Source of the DNA: Leptolyngbyaceae cyanobacterium SM1_4_3
GTDB lineage: Bacteria > Cyanobacteriota > Cyanobacteriia > Elainellales > Elainellaceae
Assembly: GCA_012031415.1 (NCBI GenBank)
Contig: JAAUTN010000020.1
Span: 1-39,862, forward strand
Length of the DNA stretch: 39,862 nt
Reading direction: 5' to 3'
Of the stretch, positions 831 through 4,618 are shown one piece after another. Both the position numbers and the translations under genes were made by a program. Position 1 is the stretch's first letter, and every line of letters starts with the position of its first letter. Below the pieces are notes generated by a model that saw nothing but the letters and a program-made list of their open reading frames with translations, had not been told where the DNA came from and did not search any database.

Positions 831-868
831 GGTAAGCCTCGTATTCCGATTGGGAAAGGAGGCTTACC
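831..868. repeat. Perfect 10-bp inverted repeat in the cysH/grx divergent gap
   Basis: GGTAAGCCTC (831-840) and GAGGCTTACC (859-868) are exact reverse complements separated by 18 bases. The element lies 20 bases upstream of the rightward start at 889 and 43 bases upstream of the cysH start. It could be an operator or a 5' leader hairpin. No regulator is assigned. Confidence 0.5.
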
Positions 869-888
869 TGTTTTGGGAGGGATTTTTC

Positions 889-1170
889 ATGCGATTGATT
901 TTGTACAGCAAGCCCGGATGTCATCTGTGTGAAGGACTTGAGGAAAAACTAGGGCAAATTCACAGCCTCCAATTTGAGTTAGAGGTGAGAGACATTACCA
1001 CTCGTAAAGATTGGTTTGAAGCCTTTCAATACGAGATCCCAGTCCTCTTCCTGGAATCTACTTCCCACTCCCACTCTCCAATTCCCCTTCCCCGCCTTTC
1101 TCCTCGCGCTACAGTTGCCCAAGTGGAGCAGATGCTACAGAAATATAGGGTGGGAAATAGTTCAGAATAG
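889..1170 (+). CDS. Glutaredoxin/thioredoxin-fold protein (DUF836-like)
   Basis: A 93-aa small redox protein. It starts MRLILYSKPGCHLC with a CxxC pair at residues 11-14, and the region EIPVLFLE precedes the cis-Pro-type loop. The ATG at 889 is chosen because GGGAGGG lies 6-8 bases upstream; an in-frame ATG at 850 would add 13 unusual residues. This short glutaredoxin family is common in cyanobacteria and is thought to act in thiol-disulfide exchange; its partner is unknown. A low-complexity stretch, STSHSHSPIPLP (DNA about 1063-1098, C/T-rich), sits where homologues usually have a shorter loop and looks like a repeat-derived insertion. murE starts 27 bp downstream on the same strand. Confidence 0.82.
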   Translation: MRLILYSKPGCHLCEGLEEKLGQIHSLQFELEVRDITTRKDWFEAFQYEIPVLFLESTSHSHSPIPLPRLSPRATVAQVEQMLQKYRVGNSSE

Positions 1171-1197: not shown

Positions 1198-2714
1198 ATG
1201 AAACTAAGAGAACTCTTGATGACTTTGCTCGAATCCGTTCATCTATCAGAGCATCCGGCTCTAGAGGCTGAGGTAAAAGGGTTAGCGACCAATTCTCATG
1301 CCTGTCAGCCAGGATATTTATTTATCGGGATGCCGGGAACGCGGGTAGATGGGGGTGAGTTTTGGCCCAGTGCGATCGCTCTGGTGCGATCGCGGCTTTG
1401 ATCTCTTCCTCGGCCGCCCAAAAGCAGCCCTCGACAAATTCCACTGCCTGCGTTGTTCCCGTAGCTGATATGGTGCAGGCTTGCGCTCAGGTGGCAACAG
1501 CGTTTTATGGCTACCCGGCGCAGCAGCTTCAACTGGTTGGGGTGACGGGCACCAACGGCAAGACCACCACCACGCACCTGATCGAGTTTCTGCTCAATCA
1601 GGCGCAGCAGCCAACCGCTTTAATGGGAACCCTTTACACCCGTTGGGCGGGTTATCAGCAAACGGCAGTTCACACGACTCCCTTTGCGGTAGAGTTGCAG
1701 CAGCAGTTGGCGGAGGCAGTCGCGGCAGGCTGCAAACTGGGCGTGATGGAGGTCAGTTCTCATGCGCTGGCGCAAGGGCGGGTGTTGGGCTGTCCGTTTG
1801 AGGTGGCGGTGTTTACCAATTTGACTCAGGATCATCTGGACTATCACCGTGACATGGAAGACTATTTTTCTGCGAAAGCGCTGCTGTTTTCGGCAGATTA
1901 TCTCAAAGGGCGAGCAATTTTGAATCTGGATGATGCCTATGGGCGACGGCTGATTCAGCAATTGCAGCCTGAGCAAGTCTGGACCTACAGCGTTGAGAAG
2001 CAAACGGCGGATTTGTGGACAAGCGGTTTGGTGTACGAGCCGGATGGCGTGAGGGGCACTTTGCACACCCCCAAAGGCGAAATAGCGTTTCAGTCGCCGC
2101 TGGTCGGTCAGTTTAATCTGTCAAATTTGCTGGCGGCGGTTGGGGCAGTGCTGCATTTAGGCGTGGAATTGGAGGCGATCGCCCACGCTCTCCCACGCTT
2201 CACAGGCGTTCCTGGACGCATGGAGCAGGTGCAGGTTTCTCCGGCGCAAGACATTAATGTGATTGTGGACTATGCCCACACGCCAGACAGTTTAGAAAAT
2301 TTGCTAAAAGCAGCCCGTCCTTTCATTCCGGCTCGAATGATTTGTGTGTTTGGCTGTGGGGGCGATCGCGATCGCACCAAGCGTCCCCTGATGGGCAAAA
2401 TTGCGGCAGAACTCGCAGACTGGGCGATCGTCACCTCCGATAATCCTCGCACTGAAGACCCGGAGCGCATCTTGCAGGACATTCTCACGGGCATTCCTGA
2501 GGCAGCAGAGCCGCTGGTAATTGGCGATCGCGCTGAGGCGATTCGCACCGCTATTATGCAGGCTCAGCCTGGAGATGGCGTACTGATTGCCGGAAAAGGA
2601 CACGAAGACTATCAGATTCTAGGCACCGAAAAAGTTCACTTTGATGACCGAGAGCAGGCACAGGCAGCTTTAGCTGAACGAATTGAGCAGATGGGAATTA
2701 AGCAGGCAGATTGA
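1198..2714 (+). CDS. murE: MurE, UDP-MurNAc-L-Ala-D-Glu meso-DAP ligase; reading frame broken by a 1-base deletion
   Basis: Adds meso-diaminopimelate to UDP-MurNAc-Ala-Glu in peptidoglycan precursor synthesis (cytoplasm, ATP-dependent). The N-terminal part (1198 to about 1380) gives the UDP-binding domain with EVKGLATNSHACQPG. The rest is in the next frame and holds the P-loop GVTGTNGKTTTTH, the substrate site VDYAHTPDSL, and DNPRTEDPE; the DNPR motif marks meso-DAP specificity. Frame 1 stops at a TGA near 1399-1401, while homology continues without loss from about 1381. Restoring one base between the two HIP1 octamers at about 1372-1394 gives a normal 505-aa protein. As MurE is normally essential, sequence error is more likely than true loss. 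Confidence 0.93.
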
Positions 2715-2908: not shown

Positions 2909-4618
2909 ATGAACTCATCCAGCTTCCAGGACGTTTCTCTTTATGAGCTAGCCCATAGCTTAGAGTTAGCTCCTCGTCCTTTGCAGGTTAGCCCTACTAT
3001 CTTTAAGTCACTGGTCAGTACCTTGATGGACTTGCTGCTTGACCAGAAAATTCCTGCAACCTTGTGGCTCAAGCTACCTCGTGGCGAAGCCTGGCAATCT
3101 GAGATTGAGCGTTTTCAGAAGCTAACTCGTGTGCCTTCTTCAATTTATATCCTTAGCTCTCACCAAGAGGATTTTGAGAAGCGTACCGTGACAGAGTTTG
3201 AGCTATCCCACACGGAACCTGAGGCAATAGCCGATGAGCCAAAAGATCCGCCCTACAGTGAGCTAGAGCCAACCCCTCAGTCAGACTCAGACGATGGACT
3301 AGCGCAGAATCACGAGCCACAAAATTACGAGTCACAGTCATCTGAATCACGAGCTAACGAATCCGAGGATGAGTGGCTGGAGCGCGACCTTACTCCCCCC
3401 GTGACAGGGCACGCTGGCAGCCTGACCCTACCCTTAGCGGCTGAAAGCAATCTCAGGCGAGAATACTTTTTGCTGGTGCTATCGGGTGAGTTTTGCGGGC
3501 TGGTGCTAGCTCATCGTCCTCGTACTGGGCGATCGCCTCGTGATGCTGATAACCAGGAAGTGCTGCTCAATCACCCTAAACCTATTCCCGGCGAGGAAGA
3601 AATAGACCGCAAGCATCCCCTGCTGGGGCTTTTTACCCTTAACCCTAAGACAATACAGCAAGTTTTAGAAGGAATTCATCGAGCGGTTTGTTGTGGGCAA
3701 TCTCAGGCTGAGCCAACCGCCGAAATCGAAGAACTACTGGTTAACTGGGATGGGTTCGTTGAACAGGCGGCAGATTGTCCCCTCAACCCTACCCTGTTGA
3801 GCCACTTGTTTACCAAGCAAATTCAGCGACAAGAAGAAATTTGGTATAGCACAGCAGTTTGGCGTAGACAGGCAGATGCCGCTGCTACGCTTCAGCTTGA
3901 AAATGAGGAATTGCTGCATTCGATTCGGCTTAAGGATGAATTCTTGAAAAACGTTGGGCAAGAACTGCGAACGCCTCTCACTACAATGAAAACGGCTCTC
4001 ACCCTGTTAGCTTCTCCTAACCTTAAGCCTACTCAGCGACAGCGCTACATGGATATGCTGACGCAGGAGTGCGATCGCCAAAGTTCTCTTATTACCAGCG
4101 TGCTTGACCTAGTGCAGATTGAAGACGCGGTTGATGCACCTATGCAGCCCCTCCGCCTAATCGAAGCAATCCCCGGAATAGTTAGCATCTACCAGCCCCT
4201 AGCTCAGGAAAAGGGCGTAATGCTGGCCTACACGGTGCCCGAAGATTTGCCTGCTGTCTCTTGTCTACACAACTGGCTGAGGCAAATCGTGATCAACCTG
4301 CTGCACAACAGCATCAAGTTCACCCCTAAAGGCGGGCAGGTGTGGGTCAAGGCAAAGCAGCAGGGCGACTATATTCAAGTAGAGGTGCGAGATACCGGAA
4401 TTGGCATTCCGCCGGCCGAAATCCCCAAAGTTTTCGATCGCTTCTATCGAGTGCGACAGGGCAGTGCAGAAGAACAAAGCGGCGCAGGTTTAGGGCTATC
4501 GATTGTTCGACAGCTTTTGCTGCGCTGCGGTGGCTCCATCTCAGTTAGAAGCAAACCAGGTGAAGGGTCTGCCTTCACCGTCCTGCTACCGCTCTATAGC
4601 TACGGTCACAAGAGATAG
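2909..4618 (+). CDS. DICT-type sensor histidine kinase lacking the phospho-acceptor His
   Basis: A 569-aa protein. Residues 1 to about 110 and 185 to 275 resemble the DICT sensory domain of cyanobacterial signalling proteins, split by an acidic Q/S/E-rich stretch (about residues 115-155). A HisKA-like dimerisation region (about 340-405) contains NVGQELRTPLTTMKTAL. The usual SHELRTP His is Gln351 here (CAA at 3959-3961). The HATPase_c domain (about 450-565) is intact: N-box NLLHNSIKFTP, G1 DTGIGIP, and GAGLGLSIVRQ. There is no transmembrane segment, so it should be cytoplasmic. No response regulator lies beside it. It could be a pseudokinase, an adaptor that pairs with another kinase, or a family-wide variant. 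The DICT assignment is by recollection. Confidence 0.82.
   Translation: MNSSSFQDVSLYELAHSLELAPRPLQVSPTIFKSLVSTLMDLLLDQKIPATLWLKLPRGEAWQSEIERFQKLTRVPSSIYILSSHQEDFEKRTVTEFELSHTEPEAIADEPKDPPYSELEPTPQSDSDDGLAQNHEPQNYESQSSESRANESEDEWLERDLTPPVTGHAGSLTLPLAAESNLRREYFLLVLSGEFCGLVLAHRPRTGRSPRDADNQEVLLNHPKPIPGEEEIDRKHPLLGLFTLNPKTIQQVLEGIHRAVCCGQSQAEPTAEIEELLVNWDGFVEQAADCPLNPTLLSHLFTKQIQRQEEIWYSTAVWRRQADAAATLQLENEELLHSIRLKDEFLKNVGQELRTPLTTMKTALTLLASPNLKPTQRQRYMDMLTQECDRQSSLITSVLDLVQIEDAVDAPMQPLRLIEAIPGIVSIYQPLAQEKGVMLAYTVPEDLPAVSCLHNWLRQIVINLLHNSIKFTPKGGQVWVKAKQQGDYIQVEVRDTGIGIPPAEIPKVFDRFYRVRQGSAEEQSGAGLGLSIVRQLLLRCGGSISVRSKPGEGSAFTVLLPLYSYGHKR

Follow-up and report, generated by a model that had tools for sequence, protein, structure and literature searches.

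Histidine kinases without a phospho-acceptor are usually met singly and dismissed as degenerate, and the phosphotransferases Spo0B and ChpT combine a DHp-like His with a CA-like domain to which ATP does not bind. In DivL of Caulobacter, a Tyr replaces the acceptor His while the N, G1, F and G2 boxes are kept; the protein has neither kinase nor phosphatase activity and binds DivK~P (PMC4211667), its nucleotide binding is weak, and it can do without its CA domain (PMC4211667, PMC9491836). Catalysis and phospho-acceptor can also be divided between two proteins, as in CheA3 and CheA4 of Rhodobacter sphaeroides, one without the His and the other without the catalytic domain, where phosphorylation takes place in trans (PMC3591291). 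A split kinase has likewise been proposed in Synechocystis for Hik36 and Hik43 (PilL-N and PilL-C), of the tax3/pil cluster (PMC7656254). For the ChrS pseudokinase and HrrS of Corynebacterium glutamicum, the native kinases are known to heterodimerise (PMC9491836). The case we describe here is that of a whole cyanobacterial family that has lost the His yet keeps the ATP site under strong selection. We found no paper in the open-access literature on this family, on the partner described below or on a murE-linked kinase, and the one paper retrieved on the DICT domain and histidine kinases in cyanobacteria dealt with c-di-GMP proteins.

The gene lies on the plus strand at positions 2909..4618 of the window, by which we mean the whole stretch of 39,862 nucleotides analysed (Leptolyngbyaceae cyanobacterium SM1_4_3, contig JAAUTN010000020.1), as an ORF of 569 amino acids coding for a DICT-HisKA-HATPase_c pseudo-acceptor histidine kinase. 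Residues 9-203 (2933..3517, plus strand) make up a DICT sensory domain (Pfam PF10069, E 6.1e-30), which scores 104.2 bits against a gathering cut-off of 23.8 and is matched in 18/18 members of the family; it holds a low-complexity insert at about residues 86-168, where the pLDDT is below 50. The DHp (HisKA) hairpin, residues 342-406 (3932..4126, plus strand; Pfam PF00512, E 2.7e-12), and the HATPase_c (CA) domain, residues 455-563 (4271..4597, plus strand; Pfam PF02518, E 2.6e-32), reach 47 and 112 bits, respectively, each above the Pfam cut-off. At the phospho-acceptor position, identified by reading the codon and from the family alignment, stands Gln351, encoded by the CAA at 3959..3961 (plus strand) within NVGQELRTPLTTMKTAL; the surrounding protein reads LKDEFLKNVGQELRTPLTTMKTAL. 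In the AlphaFold model of the protein (mean pLDDT 67) this residue lies in the first DHp helix. The protein thus departs from a canonical HisKA kinase at the H-box, where it has Gln and not His, and agrees with one in the N, G1, F and G2 nucleotide-binding boxes. These are also close to invariant in an alignment of 137 distinct family sequences. The N-box Asn467 (4307..4309, plus strand) is found in 137/137 and F509 of the F-box in 136/136. In the G1 box D495-T-G497-I-G499 (4391..4405, plus strand), D495 is kept in 136/136, G497 in 135/136 and G499 in 131/136, and the glycines of the G2 box G525-A-G527-L-G529 (4481..4495, plus strand) in 131/135, 133/136 and 132/136, so that the G boxes are conserved at 96% or more. 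The initial annotation of this gene, made from the sequence alone, had its coordinates, residue number, codon and motif right, as an ORF and codon check confirmed, and the N, G1 and G2 boxes that it called intact are so in the window protein and nearly invariant in the family.

A profile search recovered the family in 178 of 388 Cyanobacteriia genomes belonging to 85 genera, nearly always as a single copy. Residue 351 is Gln in 118 of the 137 sequences, Arg in 9, Leu in 4, Glu in 4 and His in 2; with 135/137 members lacking His, the replacement is orthologue-wide, as in DivL. By comparison, the acceptor is His in 49/49 canonical HisKA kinases, nearly all of them taken from the window's own genome, and this contrast (118/137 Gln and 2 His against 49/49 His) is far beyond chance. 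Gln is likewise present in a separate assembly, that of Cyanobacteria bacterium FACHB-471 (G022), at about 83% identity, and at 48-56% identity in Leptolyngbya sp. FACHB-8, Kaiparowitsia, Microcoleus vaginatus, Alkalinema and others. Since the 118 Gln sequences use both codons, CAA in 68 and CAG in 50, Gln351 does not go back to a single inherited base call. A decaying gene, an assembly error or a single-base change at 3959-3961 is therefore hardly credible, even though CAA is one base away from CAC or CAT, the window comes from a draft assembly of 700 contigs and a close relative (G021) also carries E352Q: beside the prevalence of Gln and its two codons, the frame is intact throughout, and dN/dS between the window gene and its FACHB-471 counterpart is 0.09 over the full length and 0.08 in the CA domain, close to the 0.058 of the neighbouring murE. 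On these comparative data we rejected a sequencing error or private mutation at codon 351, and with it the one-base change that the initial annotation had offered as an explanation. Another of its suggestions, the loss of His throughout a DICT subfamily, to be recognised by a Gln conserved in many genera, is what the alignment and the genome counts bear out. A quick maximum-likelihood tree, to be taken as provisional in the detail of its branches, groups the family in a single clade (SH-aLRT 94) with Gln in the earliest branches; Arg marks one sub-clade, Leu forms one cluster and Glu arose more than once, while the two His members (L055 of G201 and L115 of G432) are nested among Gln sequences and therefore look like reversions. 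We are almost certain that the acceptor His was lost in the ancestor of the family as a group, and the distribution of residues suggests that it was apparently lost once at the base and regained twice.

Around the lost His the family is less strict than in the ATP site. E352, R354 and T355 are found in 129, 112 and 100 of the 137 sequences, against 49, 47 and 43 of the 49 canonical kinases, nearly all from one genome, and selection on these positions is relaxed. The ATP site, conversely, is shown by the invariance of its boxes and the low dN/dS of the CA domain to be under purifying selection, which is consistent with a protein that may, as the initial annotation proposed, bind ATP without autophosphorylating. 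We also looked for another His of the core that could serve as acceptor and found no conserved one among the 137 sequences; only H466 of the N-box came up, which is His in 84/137, and it was rejected.

When the H-boxes were tabulated, a second kinase-like ORF came to light, which in several loci lies beside the Gln gene on the opposite strand and carries AHEVRTPLTTIRT. It is about 470-600 amino acids long; HisKA is over the Pfam cut-off (9/9 members) and HATPase_c is a weak match, and DICT is matched weakly in 2/9 (E 0.046). We sampled 59 of these partner sequences across the class. The motif used to pick them takes part of the H-box for granted, which slightly favours the His count, although it captured nearly every sequence with that region. 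The acceptor His is present in 59/59, the following Glu in 58/59 and the Thr in 59/59; DxGxG (G1) and GxGLGL (G2) are each found in 0/59, compared with 131/137 and 130/137 in the Gln family. The two families are thus reciprocal at the sequence level, one with His in 2/137 and the other with His in 59/59 and no G1 or G2 box. They are homologous, their profiles aligning over window-protein residues 168-567 (hhalign, E 4e-20), and the N-terminal halves alone show a weak profile similarity (P 3e-5). The quick tree does not recover the Gln and partner clades as sisters, the partner being on a long branch, and a single-sequence structure model of the partner (pLDDT 37) was unusable. The partner is single copy and near-universal, occurring in 369/388 genomes including the smallest (f19). 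Judged by their motifs, then, the Gln form is present in about half of the genomes and a presumably ATP-dead His form in nearly all cyanobacteria. This putative reciprocal partner adds to what the initial annotation had seen, and gives its heterodimer reading a concrete candidate in a neighbouring paralogue with His and without G1 and G2.

Our tentative choice, to which we give somewhat less than an even chance, is that the Gln protein and its partner form a HisKA-type split histidine kinase working in trans. The Gln protein would bind ATP and be unable to phosphorylate itself at the canonical site; it would pair through its DHp domain with the His-bearing paralogue that lacks an ATP site, and its CA domain would phosphorylate the partner's His within the heterodimer. 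The phosphorylated partner would then pass the phosphate to a response regulator, or remove phosphate from one. On this reading Gln took the place of the His in the family ancestor, to be followed by Arg, Leu or Glu in sub-lineages, with nucleotide binding kept. The stronger claim, that these are two homologous kinases of DICT type, both full-length and each lacking the motifs that the other keeps, which must pair to yield one phosphotransfer activity, seems to us rather doubtful. If pairing is real, the annotation of both proteins as ordinary histidine kinases would be wrong and, to our knowledge, no earlier HisKA-type split kinase is known. Even if they do not pair, a near-universal HisKA protein without an ATP site would be a phosphotransferase or phosphatase that needs a separate kinase.

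None of the described systems is quite of this kind. CheA3 and CheA4 likewise divide catalysis and phospho-acceptor between two proteins, but they are CheA proteins (HPt/P1) from which whole domains are missing, whereas the Gln protein and its partner keep full-length HisKA-HATPase folds and have lost individual motifs. Hik36-Hik43 is a cyanobacterial split kinase, but a split CheA homologue and neither HisKA nor DICT. ChrS resembles the Gln protein as a kinase-dead HisKA paralogue that affects phosphotransfer by its paralogue HrrS; its dead form, however, is a laboratory-evolved frameshift in the CA domain, while the Gln family is ancient. The likeness to Spo0B and ChpT applies to the partner only, which still scores as HisKA.

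The residues next to the acceptor bear on whether the Gln protein could be a dedicated phosphatase, which would only dephosphorylate a response regulator through an E/DxxT/N motif, ATP or ADP serving as cofactor. EnvZ mutants have shown that HisKA kinases without the His can keep phosphatase activity, the window protein has Q-E-L-R-T, and across the family E352 (129/137) and, in the majority, T355 are kept. The motif as a whole is nevertheless relaxed, as residue 355 is Thr in 100/137 and otherwise Ile, Ser, Asn, Ala, Met or others, compared with 59/59 in the partner and 43/49 in the mostly same-genome canonical kinases; R354 is relaxed likewise. Were the family maintained for its phosphatase activity, Thr355 should not have been lost in whole sub-lineages, and because this Thr is not retained we consider the explanation improbable.

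In the DHp hairpin, 37 residues separate the acceptor position from the helix-2 Cys (Cys388 in the window protein) in 137/137 Gln proteins and in 56/58 partners, compared with 16/49 ordinary kinases, so that the hairpins of the Gln protein and its partner are matched in length. This is one of the reasons why we think it unlikely that the Gln protein finds its partner, or partners, among the ordinary His-bearing kinases and tunes them, in the way of RetS/GacS or ChrS/HrrS. HisKA heterodimers are known (PMC9491836) and about 105 HisKA matches in the genome would offer a choice, but besides the fixed spacing, which few ordinary kinases share, no ordinary kinase was found as a conserved neighbour in the loci examined, and the next best paralogue in the genome reaches 187 bits, against 701 for the family member itself. 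The best-scoring ordinary kinases against the Gln-family profile include the canonical SHELRTP...ECDRE proteins L111, L112, L185, L186 and L188, which share the HisKA-HATPase fold and have MK.A and ECDR motifs much like those of the family; they differ in having the His, ECDRE or similar in place of ECDRQ, and a hairpin of variable length.

The partner is also linked to the Gln gene by position. Directly upstream of the latter is a murE-like gene (1362..2714, plus strand), which we name for MurE from a sequence motif; it is a conserved neighbour in many lineages (gene-order clusters c2-c1-Q), and upstream of it in the same conserved block lies a small ORF (850..1170, plus strand; cluster c2) named glutaredoxin-like by inference. 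The common order in many lineages is the glutaredoxin-like ORF, murE and the Gln-kinase on one strand, followed by the partner tail to tail on the opposite strand. The two kinase genes converge with a gap of 14-775 bp in f3, f6, f7, f16, f23, f24, f45, f55 and Microcoleus L010 (14-752 bp at L010, L214-L219 and L232), so that the convergent pair is seen in eight or more taxonomic families. At L010, from Microcoleus vaginatus, both genes are intact and separated by 103 bp. Reading the place lists by eye, we counted 13 genomes of f3, f6, f7, f16, f23, f24, f45 and f55 with the two genes convergent within 1 kb, and roughly ten more, f1 and f15 among them, within about 10 kb; linkage was part of the reason for choosing loci L295-L304, which makes them a biased sample. 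Because of shared ancestry, the adjacency should be regarded as one old arrangement retained and not as many independent events, and since the genes converge they do not form one operon. At L318, L320 and L323, where the genome lacks the Gln gene, murE and the partner have stayed near each other, which looks as though a Gln gene once between them had dropped out. The block of glutaredoxin-like ORF and murE (850-2714) is conserved ahead of the Gln-kinase in a large part of the class, and a link to the cell wall or to redox conditions is possible from this arrangement.

The main weakness of the split kinase is that about half of the genomes have the partner but lack the Gln protein. Almost every genome that carries the Gln gene has the partner as well, but co-occurrence runs in this direction only: a partner with the same degenerate CA domain is present in about 195 genomes without the Gln-kinase. 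It must therefore be able to work without it, and pairing can be at most one of its uses. We accordingly discarded strict co-occurrence as support for pairing, the partner being near-universal. Also against a split kinase, the adjacency could have been left behind by an old inverted duplication, and the two clades are not sisters in the quick tree.

The chief rival is a DivL-like pseudokinase, in which DHp and CA would be a non-catalytic scaffold or sensor exerting allosteric control over a bound response regulator or kinase, with ATP, if bound at all, setting the shape only. We regard it as quite possible, and only a little less probable than the split kinase. Foldseek places DivL (4q20) first among the matches to the window model, at 30% identity (a PDB sequence search with the DICT half gave no match to any solved structure), and DivL provides the precedent of a HisKA-type transmitter whose acceptor His is replaced throughout an orthologous family with the N, G1, F and G2 boxes present and both activities absent (PMC4211667). 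The DHp surface of the Gln family is unusually conserved (M/I360-K361-T-A, Q376-R-Q-R-Y380 and C388-D-R-Q391), and the many genomes with a partner and no Gln-kinase fit this explanation as well. The window protein is nonetheless no DivL orthologue, as it joins a DICT sensor to Gln where the alphaproteobacterial DivL joins PAS domains to Tyr. Moreover, DivL binds nucleotide weakly and can dispense with its CA domain, whereas few parts of the Gln family are as well conserved across very divergent members as the ATP site, and a scaffold leaves the reciprocal defect of the linked paralogue, for which no DivL counterpart is described, unaccounted for.

Another point against the split kinase comes from the window's own genome, where the partner lies on a separate contig, C301 (L294, G000:C301, 2059-3768, minus strand), and is frameshifted. 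One deletion of 1 nt, between the sensor and DHp, is common to G021; a second, after DHp, is absent from G021 and may be an assembly error. DHp and CA are still selected: comparing the own-genome partner with that of G021, each in its own frames, we counted 0 non-synonymous and 8 synonymous changes in DHp, and omega was 0.058 for CA and 0.275 for the N-terminal part. The transmitter half thus remains under selection while the sensor half is relaxing. The closest relative (L004/L013) has QQLRTPL, so that the Glu beside the lost His (residue 352) is missing as well, and the partner is frameshifted in the same genus. G021 also has, at a contig end (G021:C314:22898-23788, L006), a second, partial copy 100% identical to window residues 1-297; as it stands next to that genome's own 96% copy, a strain mixture between two draft assemblies is likely.

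Several further observations concern single members or residues. The two His members use CAC and CAT (L055/L218 of G201; L115/L219 of G432), and the ATP-less partner adjoins both; these natural Gln-to-His members are ready-made comparisons with their Gln relatives. At the g210 loci L103-L105, L107, L108 and L110, and at L102 (G428), the kinase is reduced to about 254-303 amino acids consisting of DHp and CA, with DICT lost and Gln kept. Finally, the helix-2 Cys388 (4070-4072), within ECDRQ, is present in 133/137 family members, most partners have an equivalent Cys (ECTEQ) and 6/49 ordinary kinases do; a redox role or a dimer contact is possible.
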